From: Zoogloea sp.
GTDB lineage: Bacteria > Pseudomonadota > Gammaproteobacteria > Burkholderiales > Rhodocyclaceae
Reading direction: 5' to 3'
Assembly: GCF_030157465.1 (NCBI RefSeq)
Contig: NZ_JAOAUU010000058.1
Location: 186,001-250,000, forward strand
Length of the DNA: 64,000 nucleotides
A program made the translations under genes and the position numbers. The notes below the pieces were generated by a model. The model did not search any database and was not told the DNA's origin. It worked only from the letters and a program-made list of their open reading frames with translations. Positions within the stretch are counted from its first letter, which is position 1; every line of letters starts with the position of its first letter. Below, piece by piece: positions 5,466 through 46,190 of this stretch.

Positions 5466-6737
5466 TCAGCGGGGGCCGCGCAGGGCGGTGAGGAGTTTCT
5501 GGCCGGCGCGTCCGTCCACAGTCTGGCCAAGACGCTGCTGTTCCGCGCGGATAGCTGCCCGGCTGGCGTCGCCGAGCATGCCGTCAACAGTGCCGATGGC
5601 GTGGCCGCGGGCGATCAGCAGGGTTTGCAGTTCGCGCCGCTCGACGCGGGAGAGGCCGGGGTCGTCGGTGGGCCAGGGCGTGGCGAAGGGCTGGCCACCC
5701 TTCAGGCGGTCGGCCAGGTGGGCGATGGCCAGAGCGTAGCTTTCGGCGGCGTTGTAGCCGTAGATGGCGTCGAAGTTGCGAAACACCAGAAAGGCCGGGC
5801 CGCGCGGGCCGGCGGGCAGCATGAGCCCGGCCGGGGCGTCGCCGCCGCCCAGCGGGCTGCCGTCGATGCGGGTGATGCCACGGGCGCTCCAGCTGGCCAG
5901 CGGCTGCTTGTTGCGGCGGCCGGCGTTGCTGGCGTCGAAGCCGGACGGCAGGCGCACTTCGTAGCCCCAGGGCTCGCCTTCGCGCCAGCCGGCTTTTTTG
6001 AGGAAGTTGGCGGTGGAGGCCAGCGCATCGGGCACGCTGCCCACCAGGTCACGCCGGCCGTCGCCGTCGAAATCCACCGCGAGGCGCAGGAAGGTGGAGG
6101 GCATGAACTGGGTATGGCCGAAGGCGCCTGCCCACGAGCCGGTGAGTTGTTCGGCCTTCACGTCGCCGGAATCGACGATCTTGAGCGCATCGAAAAACTC
6201 GCCCCGGAAGTAGGCCTGGCGGCGGCCGTAGCACGACAGCGTCGACAACGAGGTGAGCAGCGGGCGGGCGCCGAAGTTGCGCCCGAAGTTGCTTTCCACG
6301 CCCCACACGGCCACCACCGTGGCCGGATCGACCCGGTAGCGGGCAGACACGGCAGCGAGCACTTCGCTCCATTGGGCCTGCATGGCGCGGCCGTCGGCCA
6401 CGCGTTCGTCGTCCACCAGCGCCGAGAGGTAATCCCAGATCGCGGTGCGGAATTCGGGTTGGTAGTCGAGGAGTTCGAGCACCTTCATGTCGGGCACAAG
6501 GCTGGCGGTGAGGCGGTCGAAGGCAGCCCCCGAAACGCCGCGCCCCTGGGCGTCGGGCTTGAGTTCGGCAAGGCAAGGCGCAAAGCGGGCCGGATCGGGC
6601 ACCGGGGCGGCTTGGGCGGCCGAGGCCAGGAACAGCGCAATGGCCACCCCCTGCAGGGGCGACTTCAGTCGCCCGCGGATTTTGGCTGGGGCCTGGGGCC
6701 CTGGATCGGCATTGATGGTCTGAAAGGGTGGTTTCAT
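5466..6737 (-). CDS. lytic murein transglycosylase (MltB family) with C-terminal peptidoglycan-binding domain
   Basis: 'VVAVWGVESNFGRNFGARPLLTSLSTLS', 'GSWAGAFGHTQFMPSTFLRLAVDFDGDGRRDL', C-terminal PG-binding-1-like repeat. Confidence 0.92.
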   Translation of the reverse strand: MKPPFQTINADPGPQAPAKIRGRLKSPLQGVAIALFLASAAQAAPVPDPARFAPCLAELKPDAQGRGVSGAAFDRLTASLVPDMKVLELLDYQPEFRTAIWDYLSALVDDERVADGRAMQAQWSEVLAAVSARYRVDPATVVAVWGVESNFGRNFGARPLLTSLSTLSCYGRRQAYFRGEFFDALKIVDSGDVKAEQLTGSWAGAFGHTQFMPSTFLRLAVDFDGDGRRDLVGSVPDALASTANFLKKAGWREGEPWGYEVRLPSGFDASNAGRRNKQPLASWSARGITRIDGSPLGGGDAPAGLMLPAGPRGPAFLVFRNFDAIYGYNAAESYALAIAHLADRLKGGQPFATPWPTDDPGLSRVERRELQTLLIARGHAIGTVDGMLGDASRAAIRAEQQRLGQTVDGRAGQKLLTALRGPR

Positions 6738-36674: not shown

Positions 36675-37673
36675 TCAGGCCCCAGGCAGCTTTTCCACCT
36701 TCGCCTTATCTTCAGCTACTTCGGGCTGCGCGGCCTTGCGCTCCCGAACCACCTTCCACTCGGCCTCCGGCATCACCGTGACCCGCACGTCCGGGGTTTG
36801 GGCCAGACCGCCGAGAATCACCCCGCGCAGGGGCGACACGTCCTGGAAATCGCGCCCCCAGCCCAGGGTGACGTGGCGCAGGTCGGGCTGGATGCCGTTG
36901 GTGGGGTCGTATTCGGCCCAGCCGCTGTCGGGGCACCACACGGCCACCCAGGCGTGGGAGGCATCGGCGCCGACGAGGCGCGGCTTGCCGGGCGGCGGAT
37001 CGGTGAGCAGGTAGCCCGACATGTAGCGGGCCGGCAGGCCGATCGAGCGCAGGGCCGCGATCATCAGGTGGGCAAAATCCTGGCAGACGCCGCGCTTTTT
37101 CTTGAGCACTTCGAGCACCGGGGTGCCCACTTCGGTGGCTTCCGGGTCGTAGGTGAAGGTTTTGAAGATCAGCTCCATCAGCGCGTGGGCGCCGACCAGG
37201 ATGGGCACGCCGGGCTTGAAGACCTGGGCGGCGAAGGCGGCCAGCAGCGCATCGCGCGGCGCCCGCGGCGAGGCGTAGAGATAACGCTGGGCGTCAAGGG
37301 CGTCGGCGGCCAGCGGCTTGGGCCGGTAGCGCAGGCTGTCGCGCACCTGCTCCCAGGGGCGCGAGTCGGCGGGTTTGAGCAGCGGCTCCCGCCGGATCAC
37401 CGTCACGCGGCTTTCGGCGCGCACCACGAGGCCGTCGTGGGGCGTGTCGAGGGACAGCCAGGTTACCGGGTTGCCGAAGGCGTCCTCACCCTCGATCAGC
37501 CGCGCGAGATCGGGCTCGACCACGATGCGGCCGGATTCACGGCTCTGCCACGGCAGCGCGCGCGGAATCAGGTGCAGCAGGTGCTGGGACAGGGACACCG
37601 GAACACCGCAGGGCGGGTATTCGGTTTCGTGGATGACGATGTAGGCGGTGCTGCTGGGCGTCGCGGAAGTCAT
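36675..37673 (-). CDS. transglutaminase-like family protein
   Basis: Catalytic Cys/His pattern 'KKKRGVCQDFAHLMIAALRSIGLPARYMSGYLLTD...ADASHAWVAVWCPDSGWAEYDPTNG'. Confidence 0.92.
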   Translation of the reverse strand: MTSATPSSTAYIVIHETEYPPCGVPVSLSQHLLHLIPRALPWQSRESGRIVVEPDLARLIEGEDAFGNPVTWLSLDTPHDGLVVRAESRVTVIRREPLLKPADSRPWEQVRDSLRYRPKPLAADALDAQRYLYASPRAPRDALLAAFAAQVFKPGVPILVGAHALMELIFKTFTYDPEATEVGTPVLEVLKKKRGVCQDFAHLMIAALRSIGLPARYMSGYLLTDPPPGKPRLVGADASHAWVAVWCPDSGWAEYDPTNGIQPDLRHVTLGWGRDFQDVSPLRGVILGGLAQTPDVRVTVMPEAEWKVVRERKAAQPEVAEDKAKVEKLPGA

Positions 37674-37689
37674 GGGCTGGGCACGGGTT

Positions 37690-40215
37690 TCAGGCGGCGA
37701 AGGTTGCCTGCGCGGCGTTTCGCCCGACGTGGCTGAAGTAACGCATCGCGAGGCGTTCGGACAGGCCGCGGCCGGCAGCGGCAAGCTGGTCCAGGCGGTC
37801 GGCCAGCGCCAGGCAGGCGGCCTTGCGCTCGGCGGCGGGGCGGGACGCTTCGAGGCGCACCCACGGGAAGGTCTGCACCCCGGAGAAGGACTTTTCCAGT
37901 TCGGCAACGGCCAGCTTCCCGTCGCCGTCCAGCTTGCCCAGGTAGTTGGCCACCATGCGCAGCTGGAAGGCCAGCGCGTGGGGGTTGGCGTCGTCCAGCG
38001 CCAGCAGGTGGAAGGCCGGCAGCAGCTCGGGCCGGGCGCGATAGCGGGTGCGGTAGGTGATGATCGAGTCGCACAGTTCGAGCAGGGCCTCGACGGCCAG
38101 CTCCTGGTGCAGCACTTCGGCAATGTTCACGTAACGGCGCAGGAAGCGCGCCAGCGTGGTCGCGAGCATGTCGAGCCGCTCGATGCGCCGGCCGACGATG
38201 TGCAGGCGCCAGCCCATGTCGCGGGTCATGTTGTCCATCGCAAAGCCCGACAGCGACACGAAAGTGGTGAGGGCTTCGTCGAGGAAATCGAGCAGGGCAG
38301 AGACATCGCTGGCCCCCTCGCGGCAGGTTTCGATCTCGGCCGACAGGCGCTTGAGGGCGTGCCAGTGGTCGAGCGAGAGGTGTTCGCGCGCCTGCCCGGC
38401 GCACCAGGTGAGGCGCTGCAGGTTGGTGGCCAGACCCTGGTCGGCGCGACGGTCGAGCACCGCCCGGAAGAGTTCCAGCTCGGCCTTGACGATGGGCCCG
38501 TCGATGGCTTCGGCCTCGACGAGGCCGGCGCCGGCGGCAAGGTGAAGCATCATGCCGAGCGCTCCGGCGCGCTCGCTGCGACGCCCTTCCGAGAGGCGCG
38601 ACAGGGCCACCCGGGCCAGCCGGGCGATGGCGTCGCAGCGCTCGCTGTAGCGGCCGAACCAGAACAGGTTTTCGGCGAGACGCGACGACAGGGTGCCGGT
38701 TTCGGTAATCAGGTCGTCCACGCCGATGGTGTTGTGGAGCAGGCTGAAGCCGGACACCGGGCCATCGGACAGCACCCAGGTATCCTTGCTGCTGCCGCCC
38801 TTCTGCAGGGTCAGGATGCGCGCGTTGTCGACGCCGGCCACCCGCGCCAGGCCGCCCGGCATGACCTTGTAGCCCTCGGGCCCGATGGCGGCGTAAACGC
38901 GCAGGCCCATCGCCCGGGAGCGCAGCTTGCGCCGCTGGCCGCCGGACCACACCGGCGCGCGGGAGAGCTTGACGAGCTCCTGGGCCACGAAGGCCGACGG
39001 GTCGGCCTCGATGCGCGCGGCCAGCGCGTCGAGCTGGTCCGGGCCGAGCCGGTCGCCAAAGATGATTTCGCTGGAGAGGCCGGGAAAGGTCGGCTTGATC
39101 ACCAGATCCTTGAGGTTGGCGAGCACTTCCTTGCGGGCCGGGGTTTCACCGCACCACCAGGTGGCGACCGAGGGCATGGCGAGTTCCTCGCCGAGCAGAT
39201 GGCGGCAGATGCCGGGCAAAAAGCCGGGCAGCGCGGCCGATTCGAGCAGACCCGAACCCAGCGCATTGGCCACCAGCACGCGGCCGGCGCGCACCGCACC
39301 GAGCAGGCCGGGCACGCCGAGGGCCGAGTCGGCGCGCAGTTCGACCGGGTCGCAGAAGTCGTCGTCAAGGCGGCGCAGGATGGCGTGAACGCGCTTGAGA
39401 CCGGACACCGTCTTGAGATAGACGGTGTCGTTGCGCACCGTCAGATCCTGCCCTTCCACCAGCGGAAAACCCAGGTAGCGGGCCAGGTAGACGTGTTCGA
39501 AGTAGGTTTCGTTGAAGGGGCCGGGCGTGAGCAGCACGGTGAGCGGCGGCTCGCCGTCGCTGGGCGCCTGGCTGCCGAGGCTGCCCTGCAGGCCGTGGAA
39601 GAAGCGCGCCAGGGTTTGCACCTGCATGTCGCGGAAGAGATCGGGAAACGCGCGCGACACCAGCAGGCGGTTTTCCAGCGCGTAGCCGGCGCCGGAGGGC
39701 GACTGGGTGCGGTCGGCAATCACCCACCATTGCCCGTCGGGCGAGCGGGCCAGATCGGCGGCGTAAAGGTGCAGGTGCGTGCCGCCAACCGGTTTGATGC
39801 CCTGGCAGGGCCACAGGAAACCCTTGTGACCAAAGACCAGCTCGGGCGGCAGCAGGCCTTCCGAGAGCGTGGTTTGGGCGCCGTAGAGATCACCCAGCAG
39901 CGCGTCGAGCAGGCGCGCGCGCTGCCCAATGGCGGTGGCGATGCCGCGCCACTCGTCGGCCGGCAGGATCATCGGCAGCAGATCGAGTGACCACGGCCGG
40001 CCCGTGCCGCGGGGGTCGGCGTAGACGTTGTAGGTGACGCCGTTTTGTTGAATGCCGCGGGCCAGCTGGGCGGCGCGGGCCTTCATGGTCTCGCCGCCGG
40101 ATTCGTCGATGTGCTCGAGGAACTGCTGCCAGTGCGGCCGCACGTCGTCCTCGCCGCACAATTCGTCGTAGCTGTCGGGGCGGTAGGTGTAGTGGGCGAG
40201 GAAGGGGCTGGTCAT
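37690..40215 (-). CDS. circularly permuted type 2 ATP-grasp protein fused to alpha-E domain
   Basis: 'MTSPFLAHYTYRPDSYDELCGEDD...', 'FLWPCQGIKPVGGTHLHLYAADLARSPDGQWWVIADRTQSPSGAGYALENR'; C-terminal 'LSSRLAENLFWFGRYSERCDAIARLARV' alpha-E-like. Confidence 0.9.
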   Translation of the reverse strand: MTSPFLAHYTYRPDSYDELCGEDDVRPHWQQFLEHIDESGGETMKARAAQLARGIQQNGVTYNVYADPRGTGRPWSLDLLPMILPADEWRGIATAIGQRARLLDALLGDLYGAQTTLSEGLLPPELVFGHKGFLWPCQGIKPVGGTHLHLYAADLARSPDGQWWVIADRTQSPSGAGYALENRLLVSRAFPDLFRDMQVQTLARFFHGLQGSLGSQAPSDGEPPLTVLLTPGPFNETYFEHVYLARYLGFPLVEGQDLTVRNDTVYLKTVSGLKRVHAILRRLDDDFCDPVELRADSALGVPGLLGAVRAGRVLVANALGSGLLESAALPGFLPGICRHLLGEELAMPSVATWWCGETPARKEVLANLKDLVIKPTFPGLSSEIIFGDRLGPDQLDALAARIEADPSAFVAQELVKLSRAPVWSGGQRRKLRSRAMGLRVYAAIGPEGYKVMPGGLARVAGVDNARILTLQKGGSSKDTWVLSDGPVSGFSLLHNTIGVDDLITETGTLSSRLAENLFWFGRYSERCDAIARLARVALSRLSEGRRSERAGALGMMLHLAAGAGLVEAEAIDGPIVKAELELFRAVLDRRADQGLATNLQRLTWCAGQAREHLSLDHWHALKRLSAEIETCREGASDVSALLDFLDEALTTFVSLSGFAMDNMTRDMGWRLHIVGRRIERLDMLATTLARFLRRYVNIAEVLHQELAVEALLELCDSIITYRTRYRARPELLPAFHLLALDDANPHALAFQLRMVANYLGKLDGDGKLAVAELEKSFSGVQTFPWVRLEASRPAAERKAACLALADRLDQLAAAGRGLSERLAMRYFSHVGRNAAQATFAA

Positions 40216-43400: not shown

Positions 43401-43800
43401 TGGTCGCAAGATAGGCCTTGAGCAGCGGCGTGGCCTCTTCCTTGAGCAGGAAGGGCGCGAGCTCGTGGCGGAGGGCGCCGGCGTACTCGAAGGGAAAGTT
43501 CTCGGCCTCGGGCTCGAGAAAGAAATCGAAGGGGTTGATGACCGACATTTCGGCAACCAGATCCACTTCGACGCTGAACGCGGTGACTTCGTCCGGGAAG
43601 ACCAGCCGGGCGAGGTAGTTGCCCTGTGGGTCCTGCTGCCAGTTGATGAAGTGCGGCTCGGGCAGCACGCGCAGCGAGTAGGACAGAATGCGCGTACGGC
43701 TGTGAGGCGCCGGGCGCAGGCGCACCACCTGCGGGCCCAGGGCTACCGGGCGGTCGTAGGTGTAGGCGGTCAGGTGATTGAGGGCGACATGGATTGTCAC
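40420..43800 (-). CDS. transglutaminase-like / DUF2126 protein (GTG start)
   Basis: N-term 'LNHLTAYTYDRPVALGPQVVRLRPAPHSRT', 'RTGSCRDSAWLLVQLLRHLGLAARFVSGYLIQL', 'DLHAWTEVYLPGAGWVGLDPTSGL'; long C-terminal 'GGEPTFVSVDDPDGAEWNTEA' DUF2126-type region. Confidence 0.92.
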   Translation of the reverse strand: MTIHVALNHLTAYTYDRPVALGPQVVRLRPAPHSRTRILSYSLRVLPEPHFINWQQDPQGNYLARLVFPDEVTAFSVEVDLVAEMSVINPFDFFLEPEAENFPFEYAGALRHELAPFLLKEEATPLLKAYLATISREKLRNVDFLVKLNADLQKHIGYVIRMEPGVQTPEETLTKRTGSCRDSAWLLVQLLRHLGLAARFVSGYLIQLKADVKALDGPSGTEVDFTDLHAWTEVYLPGAGWVGLDPTSGLFAGEGHIPLACSPDPSSAAPISGLIGECECEFEHHMKVTRVKETPRVTKPYTEEQWAAIEALGHRIDVDLEAHDMRLTMGGEPTFVSVDDPDGAEWNTEAMGPNKRIRAEDLYHRLRDKYAPQGLAHFGQGKWYPGEQLPRWSLTCFWRKDGEPVWMNRALIGDASTPGPVKVDMAHTFLAGVASRLGVDQRRVFPAYEDAFYYLWRERRLPGNVDPFDARLDDPLERDRIRRVYEYGLPNPVGYVLPVSISPYTGAWQTGPWFLRDERCYLIPGDSPLGYRLPLDSQPWVEKGSYPYVNPPDNHQSFPPLPEYKAIRRQLPGGQTAVLNALRDDEPGFGSSAAARAAAALKAAKAAEKLSPTDKTPGKFESADWIVRTAMCVEPRNGTLHVFMPPLSSLEKYLELVTAIEATAEDLGTPVVLEGYEPPSDPRLTHFRITPDPGVIEVNIHPASNWEELVERTTHLYDAAHFSRLTSEKFMVDGRHTGTGGGNHFVLGGATPSDSPFLRRPDLLRSLISYWHNHPSLSYLFSGMFIGPTSQAPRIDEARNDSVYEIETAFRQFPKLGEDVPPWLIDRLLRNLLIDVTGNTHRSEFCIDKLYSPDGPTGRLGLLELRAFEMPPHARMSLSQQLLLRGLMSIFWENAYQPERLVRWGTELHDRFLLPHFVQQDFSDVMEDMQAHGLPFDTEWFAPHMEFRFPKIGDFAVRGIQVELRSALEPWHVMGEEGAIGGTVRFVDSSVERLQVKVTGMSDDRFVLAVNGRTIPLQPTGTVGEFVAGVRYRAWQPPSCLHPTIKPHAPLVFDLVDTWTGRSLGGCQYHVSHPGGRSFETFPVNAFEAESRRLARFFRMGHTPGDVKLKVSPVEKEFPFTLDLRR

Positions 43801-43849
43801 GGGAGACTCCGTTCTCGGGGCTGCGGGTTTCAGGCTTGCTGAAAGCTAT

Positions 43850-43865
43850 AGCAATATTTATGCCA
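43850..43865 (-). promoter_or_regulatory. putative sigma-54 (-24/-12) promoter for the transglutaminase cluster
   Basis: Minus strand TGGCATAAATATTGCT: GG-N10-GC, consensus TGGCACG-N4-TTGCW. Confidence 0.7.
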
Positions 43866-43992
43866 TTCATCCCGCACAGCTCATAGAACGTTTGAATGCA
43901 AATCCAGGGCCCTGGCGCACCGCAAGAACGGGGTTTCAGCGCCCCAAACCGCCGCCACGCACCGTTCATGCACCAAGTCGAGGACTCATGAC

Positions 43993-44009
43993 CGCACCAT
44001 TTCGGTGCG
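43993..44009. promoter_or_regulatory. putative NtrC binding site
   Basis: CGCACCATTTCGGTGCG, 14/17 to TGCACCAWWWTGGTGCA, about 160 bp upstream of the predicted sigma-54 start. Confidence 0.55.
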
Positions 44010-44261
44010 CAAACGATCTCAAGCACCACTTCCGCGCCCGCTCCGCCGAAACACCTCCGATCACGGAAGCGCCGGTTTACCTGCGTGGCGAAGAACAATC
44101 TGGCAGAAATATGTAAATTGATGAAACAAACAAAATCGCGCGTGAAGTAAGCCCGCAAGCGCCGCAGCGCTCACACGGATCATCCGGGTCCGCCGGTGCC
44201 AACCCGCACCCTGGAACACTAATGGCCCCAATGAAGGGCCACACCCCCCGGAGACTTATTG

Positions 44262-46190
44262 ATGCGCCAGACACCTTTGCGACCGGCCCTGGGCCGCGCG
44301 CTGAAACTGGCCGGAAGCGCCCTGCTTCTGACCAGCGCCCTCCCCGCCCTTGCCCAGATCACGCCGAAGCCGCCCGAATCGCTGGCCGGCGTCAGCCGTC
44401 CGGAGCCGTCCAACCTGCGTGACTTCGTTGCCAACCGGACTCTCGCCACCGCGCTCGGCAAGGCCTTGTTCTGGGACATGCAGATGGGCAGCGACGGCGC
44501 CACCGCCTGCGCGTCGTGCCACTTCCATGCCGGCGCCGACAGCCGCTCGAAGAATCAGCTCTCGCCGGGCCTCAACCGCAGCCCGAACGCCGACACCAGC
44601 TTCCAGGCCGGCGGCCCCAACACCCAGCTGAAGGCCTCCGACTTCCCCTTCCACCAGTTCGCCAATCCGGACGATCGCAACTCGGCGATGACCCGCAACG
44701 TGAACGACGTGGTGGGCTCCCAGGGCGTGTTCCGCGAGCAGTTCAGCGCCGTTGTCAGCGGTCAGCGGGCCGAGGCGCGCCAGCTCACCTGGGACGCCAT
44801 CTTCAACGTGGACGGCCAGGTCACCCGCCAGGTCACGCCGCGCAACAGCCCCAGCGTGATCAACGCGGTGTTCAACCTGCGCAACTTCTGGGATGGCCGC
44901 GCCCAGACAATCTTCAACGGCGTCAATCCCTGGGGCAAGCGCGATGGCTCGGCGCGGGTGTACAAGAACGTGTCCACCCTCAACCTGCTGGGCGGCACCT
45001 CCACCAAGGTCACCCCGGTGTCGGTCGAGATCGACAACGCCAGCCTCGCCTCGCAGGCTTCCGGGCCGCCCCTGAGCGCCGCCGAGATGTCGGCGGCCGG
45101 GCGCGGCTTCCCCGACATCGGTCGCAAGATGCTCAGCCTGCGCCCCCTCGCCGGCCAGCAGGTGGCCAGCGACGACAGCCTGCTCGCCAGCTATCGCGCC
45201 GGCTCGGGCGACGGCCTGTCCTCCGCCAACTATGCCGAGCTGATCAAGACGGCCTTCCGTCCCGAGTGGTGGAACGGCAAGCAGTCCGTCACGGTGAATG
45301 GCAAGACCTACAGCCAGATGGAGGCCAACTTCAGCCTCTTCATGGGCCTCGCCATCCAGCTCTATGAAACCACCCTGGTTTCCGATCGCAGCCCCTTCGA
45401 CCGCTATGTCGAAGGCAGCAGCAGCGCCATGACCCCCCAGCAGGCCATGGGCATGGGGCTGTTCTGGGGCAAGGGCAAGTGCGTCAACTGCCACGGCGGC
45501 GCCGAGTTCACCAACGCCAGCATCCGCCGCCGCCTGATTACCGACCGCATGAGCAGCATGCTGATGGGCGACAACAACCGTGCGGTGTACGACGAGGGTT
45601 TCTACAACATCTCGGTCACCCCGACCACCGAAGACCTGGGCGTGGGCGCCAACGATCCGTTCGGCAATCCGCTTTCGTTCAGCGGCGTGGCCAAGCAATC
45701 GCTGCTCAAGTTCAATTACCTGGAAAAAGCCCTCGCCAATGTGCTTGTGACCCCGCTGTCGCGCATCGCCGTCGGCGGCGCCTTCAAGACCCCCGGCCTG
45801 CGTAACGTGGAGCTGACCGCCCCGTATTTCCACAACGGTGGCGTGGCAACGCTCGAGCAGGTGGTCGAGTTCTACAACCGCGGCGGCAACTTTGCCTACG
45901 CCAACCGCACCAACCTGGATGCCGACATCCAGCCCCTCAGCCTCTCCGCCACCGAGAAGGCGGCCTTGGTGGCCTTCCTGCGCGCCCTGACCGACGAGCG
46001 GGTACGCACCCACGCGGCGCCTTTCGACCACCCGCAACTGTTCATCGCCAACGGCCACACGGGCACCAGCTCCGCCGTCACCGGCGACGGCAGCGGCCGG
46101 GCGGCCACCGAATGGCTCAACCTCGGGGCGGTGGGGCGTGGCGGTTACAGCGCCAGCAGCATCCCGGCGAACTTCCTCGGCCAGAAGTAA
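44262..46190 (+). CDS. di-heme cytochrome c peroxidase / MauG-family protein
   Basis: Signal peptide, heme motifs CASCH and CVNCH, 'FKTPGLRNVELTAPYFHNGGVATLEQVVEFYNRGG'. Confidence 0.9.
   Translation: MRQTPLRPALGRALKLAGSALLLTSALPALAQITPKPPESLAGVSRPEPSNLRDFVANRTLATALGKALFWDMQMGSDGATACASCHFHAGADSRSKNQLSPGLNRSPNADTSFQAGGPNTQLKASDFPFHQFANPDDRNSAMTRNVNDVVGSQGVFREQFSAVVSGQRAEARQLTWDAIFNVDGQVTRQVTPRNSPSVINAVFNLRNFWDGRAQTIFNGVNPWGKRDGSARVYKNVSTLNLLGGTSTKVTPVSVEIDNASLASQASGPPLSAAEMSAAGRGFPDIGRKMLSLRPLAGQQVASDDSLLASYRAGSGDGLSSANYAELIKTAFRPEWWNGKQSVTVNGKTYSQMEANFSLFMGLAIQLYETTLVSDRSPFDRYVEGSSSAMTPQQAMGMGLFWGKGKCVNCHGGAEFTNASIRRRLITDRMSSMLMGDNNRAVYDEGFYNISVTPTTEDLGVGANDPFGNPLSFSGVAKQSLLKFNYLEKALANVLVTPLSRIAVGGAFKTPGLRNVELTAPYFHNGGVATLEQVVEFYNRGGNFAYANRTNLDADIQPLSLSATEKAALVAFLRALTDERVRTHAAPFDHPQLFIANGHTGTSSAVTGDGSGRAATEWLNLGAVGRGGYSASSIPANFLGQK

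Follow-up and report, generated by a model that had tools for sequence, protein, structure and literature searches.

A predicted NtrC-activated σ54 promoter in front of the transglutaminase/DUF2126 putative amidoligase cluster of Zoogloea

Gene cluster and promoter elements at the locus

The stretch of Zoogloea DNA analysed here (64 kb, referred to as the window) carries on its minus strand a cluster of three genes, which are listed in Table 1 together with the elements upstream. The start of gene 2 is likely the ATG at 40215, based on alignment to relatives, and the order of gene 1 followed by gene 2 is kept in most loci examined. ATP-grasp, alpha-E and transglutaminase-like genes occur together here according to their Pfam matches, with an order that is conserved in most related loci, a combination which PMC6376114 and PMC5666114, citing Iyer et al. 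2009, describe as a peptide-modification system. A Cys-His-Asp triad is visible in the sequence of gene 1, and the triad motifs of both transglutaminase domains can be read as GSCRD/LHAW/LDPT and GVCQD/SHAW/YDPT, so both domains are probably active. Genes 1 and 2 are separated by approximately 200 bp in which neither a σ70-like promoter nor a terminator was found, and genes 1 to 3 are probably expressed as one transcript. On the other side of the promoter region lies a divergent MauG/di-haem peroxidase-type gene (44259–46190 of the window), which is present in only some of the congeners.

Table 1. Features of the DUF2126 cluster and its upstream region (window positions)
Feature	Position	Strand	Remarks
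Predicted NtrC site I, CGCACCGAAATGGTGCG on the minus strand	43993..44009	.	Exact GCAC-N7-GTGC in 20/21 Zoogloea
Predicted weak NtrC site II, conserved half-site TTGGTGCAT	43969..43985	minus	Centre 24 bp promoter-proximal of site I
σ54 promoter element TGGCATAAATATTGCT	43850..43865	minus	Exact consensus; GG at -24, GC at -12, N10 between
Predicted transcription start	43839	minus	About 12 nt downstream of the -12 element, from standard σ54 spacing
GGAG ribosome-binding site of GTG 43800	43807..43810	minus	AACGGAG...GTG conserved in all congeners
Gene 1, transglutaminase-like + DUF2126 putative amidoligase, 1126 aa	40420..43800	minus	Pfam PF09899, PF08379, PF01841 far over cut-off
Gene 2, circularly permuted ATP-grasp/alpha-E fusion	37690..40215	minus	Pfam PF14403, PF04174, PF04168
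Gene 3, second transglutaminase-like protein (5' end approximate)	36675..37679	minus	Pfam PF01841, PF08379; order conserved

All sequences named in the initial annotation were found where it had placed them. The proposed σ54 match with GG-N10-GC spacing is a perfect -24/-12 element, with TGGCATAAATATTGCT corresponding exactly to TGGCAT-N5-TTGCT, including the TTGC context, and it is the sole exact match to TGGCAYNNNNNTTGCW across the window. In the complete genome (4.7 Mb) the consensus pattern occurs 19 times versus four times for a reversed control pattern, while in simulated 350-bp regions the σ54 consensus was found in 182/200,000 cases and jointly with GCACC-N5-GGTGC in 0/200,000. Near-matches to the σ54 consensus are at chance level within the window, and the exact match is rare, but by itself is not proof. 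The predicted leader, from the inferred start to the conserved GTG, would be approximately 39 nt; both this startcodon and its proposed GGAG ribosome binding site are retained in all congeners. Scans of the promoter region for terminators and Rfam RNAs gave no matches.

The centre of the GCACC-N5-GGTGC palindrome (site I) is located 150 bp upstream of the -12 C, and it matches 10/12 specified positions of TGCACC-N5-GGTGCA. The palindrome had been put forward as 14/17 to the NtrC consensus, and while it is present, such a score carries no weight by itself: with up to three mismatches there are 57 matches to TGCACC-N5-GGTGCA in the window versus 54 expected, five of these with two mismatches, and the palindrome score alone is therefore nothing special. 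From the additional GCACC half-sites suggested earlier, the one at 43970 is conserved in the congeners: wherever the palindrome is exact (20 Zoogloea promoters), a TGGTGC half-site is centred at precisely +24 bp from its centre. The alignment shows no such conservation for the half-sites at 43917 and 43959, which seem incidental. Since the single-sequence matches are weak, the case for the predicted promoter rests on conservation across relatives rather than on the sequence of this one locus.

Conservation of the promoter elements in related genomes

At 109 loci the DNA upstream of the orthologue was searched for TGGY-N7-TTGC within -110 to -20 of the startcodon, with the expectation taken from dinucleotide shuffles. 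Conservation in close relatives had been set beforehand as a test of the proposed promoter, and the σ54 site was found in 21/21 Zoogloea species (0.23 expected), always in the same place and with variable inner bases, while the palindrome core GCAC-N7-GTGC is exact (8/8 positions) in 20/21 and matches at 7/8 positions in the 21st. The DNA between the two elements cannot be aligned among congeners, but both elements are kept. The σ54 site was also found in 30/30 Pseudomonas loci (0.46 expected), which, given how closely related they are, cannot be taken as 30 independent cases, in 12/23 other Rhodocyclales and relatives (0.23 expected) and in 11/22 Burkholderiales (0.15 expected). A further 110 genomes of the same GTDB family contained the strict σ54 motif in 58 cases and the palindrome in 42, versus 0.88 and 0.90 expected, respectively.

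The conservation has its limits, as the exact 8/8 palindrome is absent from many Burkholderiales and Pseudomonas promoters, with the latter containing only NtrC-like half-site pairs, and no σ54 site was found directly upstream of the DUF2126 gene in the Marinobacter loci and in some genera of the Rhodocyclaceae. In the genus g72, which includes Thauera (L310–L339), the palindrome is present in 8/8, and in two sequences from this genus (L317 and L322) the position expected for the promoter reads GCGCACGCTTCTTGCT, with the -12 TTGCT kept and the -24 GG changed to CG.

NtrC as the probable activator

The genome has one rpoN gene (Sigma54_CBD, E 5e-60) and a single ntrC gene scoring above the curated cut-off. 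A genome-wide search for GCACY-N5-RGTGC gave 58 sites, and the 46 palindrome-holding loci among the matches listed were examined for a nearby σ54 site. Only four of these 46 have a good σ54 site within 300 bp downstream of the palindrome, these being glnA, the ammonium transporter gene amt, a gene for an NMT1-like substrate-binding protein, and a second ATP-grasp/alpha-E operon. Both glnA and amt are classical NtrC targets, and in aligned promoters from the genus (23 of glnA and 21 of the second operon) the two elements are likewise conserved. As the same motif pair precedes glnA and amt, the activator of the DUF2126 cluster promoter is very probably NtrC. The NMT1-like protein, which has a Tat signal (L112, contig C5 of genome G000), is a probable further NtrC target and perhaps part of a nitrate-type transporter; its palindrome and σ54 site are spaced 110 bp apart, which is off the helical ladder described below.

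The genome also encodes about a dozen further σ54 activators, which match the NtrC model below the cut-off, and together with the divergence of the palindrome in Pseudomonas and the Burkholderiales this would fit a genuine σ54 promoter served by another enhancer-binding protein. We consider this improbable, given that glnA and amt of this genome have the same palindrome, and that the homologous operon of B. cenocepacia requires NtrC (PMC5491218). Less probable still is that the palindrome serves the MauG-type gene diverging at 44259, either in place of the amidoligase cluster or together with it: although it lies between the two genes, approximately 250 bp from the MauG-type start, the upstream gene varies among congeners (MauG-type, acyl-CoA synthetase or nirE(-like)), and most of them have a gene other than the MauG-type there, often on the same strand, yet keep both elements in front of gene 1. 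An assignment of the palindrome to the MauG-type gene was rejected because of this variation between species, which also indicates that the junction has been rearranged repeatedly. Finally, chance motif matches in front of genes driven by an ordinary σ70 promoter would agree with the lack of enrichment of near-matches to either consensus in the window, but this has next to no probability left and is in practice already refuted, as the motifs are kept far more often than shuffles predict in four clades and in the 110 additional genomes, and no σ70-like site was found in a scan of positions 43600–44300.

Second operon, fused operons and Anbu

The second ATP-grasp/alpha-E operon of this genome (L163, and positions 5887–8254 of L168 on contig C139 of G000) has its own NtrC palindrome GCACTGTTTTGGTGC and σ54 site TGGCACGCTTCTCGCT, both conserved in the congeners. 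In many of the relatives in which no site immediately precedes the DUF2126 gene, this gene follows ATP-grasp and alpha-E genes, in some cases separated from them by Anbu or a transglutaminase gene. Among the nine such fused operons for which the analysis covered the upstream DNA, the σ54 site precedes the first gene in 5/9, and was not found at the operon head in the other 4/9; Marinobacter (L055–L057) and an uncultured lineage (L015) have fused operons with no recognisable σ54 site either at the head or before DUF2126. The missing sites were considered as an argument against the promoter, and this was rejected, with the exception of Marinobacter and L015, as in many of these loci gene 1 is inside a longer operon, with the site at its head in 5/9. 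A Burkholderia locus (L072) has a σ54 site and an exact palindrome at the operon head, and the same gene order as B. cenocepacia I35_5080-5083.

The gene encoding the proteasome-like protein Anbu stands alone on another contig (positions 1480–2232 of L181, contig C32 of G000), away from both amidoligase operons, and no σ54 site or palindrome was found in its upstream DNA; hence the Zoogloea cluster does not have the arrangement with Anbu inside the operon. Anbu adjoins DUF2126 in only a few relatives, for example L043, L243 and L248. In these and other merged loci the ATP-grasp, alpha-E and/or Anbu genes are directly upstream of DUF2126, physically linking the systems. The two Zoogloea operons are best read as the split form of one system, each part with its own NtrC promoter.

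Spacing between enhancer and promoter

We compared the distances in the promoters of the DUF2126 cluster from Zoogloea and further Rhodocyclaceae (L082–L103 and L242–L351), glnA (L212–L234) and the second operon (L182–L202). In the Zoogloea DUF2126 promoters, the centre of the palindrome is 106, 117, 128, 138, 149/150, 160, 169, 172 or 217 bp from the -12 C. The glnA sites are approximately 85.5 and 116 bp away, and for the second operon the distance is 63 or 73 bp. With the exception of 217 bp, these distances share a single ladder with steps of approximately 10.7 bp. Since this first phasing test was post hoc, it was repeated on the 110 new genomes, where collapsing the exact palindromes by genus left 14 distances (R=0.76 at 10.65 bp; Rayleigh p ~4e-5). 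Only 9/20,000 random sets were equally phased in a Monte Carlo simulation, and all 14 distances are within 3 bp of the phase of the Zoogloea set, whereas the distance to the startcodon is less phased (R ~0.4). Shared ancestry among the genera lowers the true significance of these values, with the distinct Zoogloea values alone giving p ~0.003. The distance between enhancer and promoter thus differs by whole turns of the DNA (~10.7 bp) among species as well as among promoters, as predicted by looping.

Proposed mechanism and implications

Under nitrogen limitation NtrC is phosphorylated and oligomerises, and through DNA looping it drives the ATP-dependent opening of the σ54 complex. For the DUF2126 cluster, phosphorylated NtrC dimers would bind site I as well as site II, which is weaker and lies 24 bp closer to the promoter. 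The bound NtrC would then assemble, bring about a DNA loop and remodel the σ54 RNA polymerase waiting at the -24/-12 element. The remodelled polymerase would then switch on the genes for the transglutaminase-DUF2126 protein, the ATP-grasp-alpha-E fusion and the second transglutaminase, probably as one transcript. We regard it as highly likely that the promoter of the DUF2126 cluster is an NtrC-activated σ54 promoter, with binding, looping and a nitrogen response predicted for Zoogloea. The σ54/NtrC control originally proposed for this locus is supported by the conservation of the motifs, their presence at glnA and amt, the presence of both rpoN and ntrC, and the ntrC data from B. cenocepacia.

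The predicted regulation of the widespread DUF2126/ATP-grasp/alpha-E/transglutaminase set suggests that these putatively amide-forming genes serve at times of nitrogen scarcity, and their enzymatic role is most likely in an ATP-driven peptide or amide-bond pathway for nitrogen scavenging or turnover. More broadly, and with less confidence, we favour the view that DUF2126, ATP-grasp, alpha-E and transglutaminase proteins form one nitrogen-starvation system under NtrC/σ54 control across beta- and gammaproteobacteria, the split parts of which have retained or acquired their own NtrC promoter and the enhancer distance of which has evolved by whole turns only, with selection acting on both the nitrogen-scavenging amide function and the looping geometry. 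The placement in a nitrogen-starvation regulon tells experimenters which condition and which mutant to examine.

Comparison with known systems

A close counterpart within the genome is the glnA promoter, which in this genome and in the congeners likewise has GCAC-N7-GTGC sites and a TGGCAYG..CTGCT element. It differs in having two strong sites, 30 bp apart and at 86 and 116 bp from the promoter, whereas in front of the DUF2126 cluster a strong site, 150 bp away, is paired with a weak one at a spacing of 24 bp.

In B. cenocepacia H111, genes I35_5080-5083 encode DUF404/407, DUF403, transglutaminase and large transglutaminase proteins, and are among the common targets of σ54 and NtrC, with log2 ntrC/wt ratios under nitrogen limitation of -8.2, -9.4, -9.4 and -6.0, respectively, although they were reported only as members of the regulon (PMC5491218). 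Loss of their transcription in an rpoN mutant is reported as well. These genes share the domain set of the Zoogloea cluster (DUF404/407 being ATP-grasp and DUF403 alpha-E), and from the gene order in L072 we infer that the large transglutaminase protein is of the DUF2126 type. The organisation differs: in B. cenocepacia the genes form a single operon that starts with a free ATP-grasp gene, and in Zoogloea they are divided over two operons that each have a predicted NtrC/σ54 promoter. Control of this gene set by NtrC has already been shown for the Burkholderia homologues; the idea is not new for the family and the novelty is modest in this respect. For Azoarcus olearius BH72, nothing that bears on this gene set was found in the main text of the RNA-seq paper.

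The Anbu operon of P. putida (PP_2685-2688) is induced by nitrogen limitation, which PMC7801951 and PMC8050072 attribute to NtrB/NtrC, citing Hervas et al. Like the Zoogloea cluster, it contains ATP-grasp, alpha-E and transglutaminase genes, but the four-gene operon as described there has Anbu inside and no DUF2126, whereas the Zoogloea Anbu gene is elsewhere.

With regard to the spacing, the natural loop lengths of the Vibrio qrr enhancers, which are activated by LuxO with σ54, cluster approximately 11 bp apart (PMC4740811). While that system combines LuxO with small-RNA genes, the promoters described here combine the predicted NtrC sites with a protein operon in another lineage, at distances from 54 to more than 170 bp, and the whole-turn ladder would be a second natural case, after Vibrio qrr, in which the helical phase of a σ54 enhancer is under selection.
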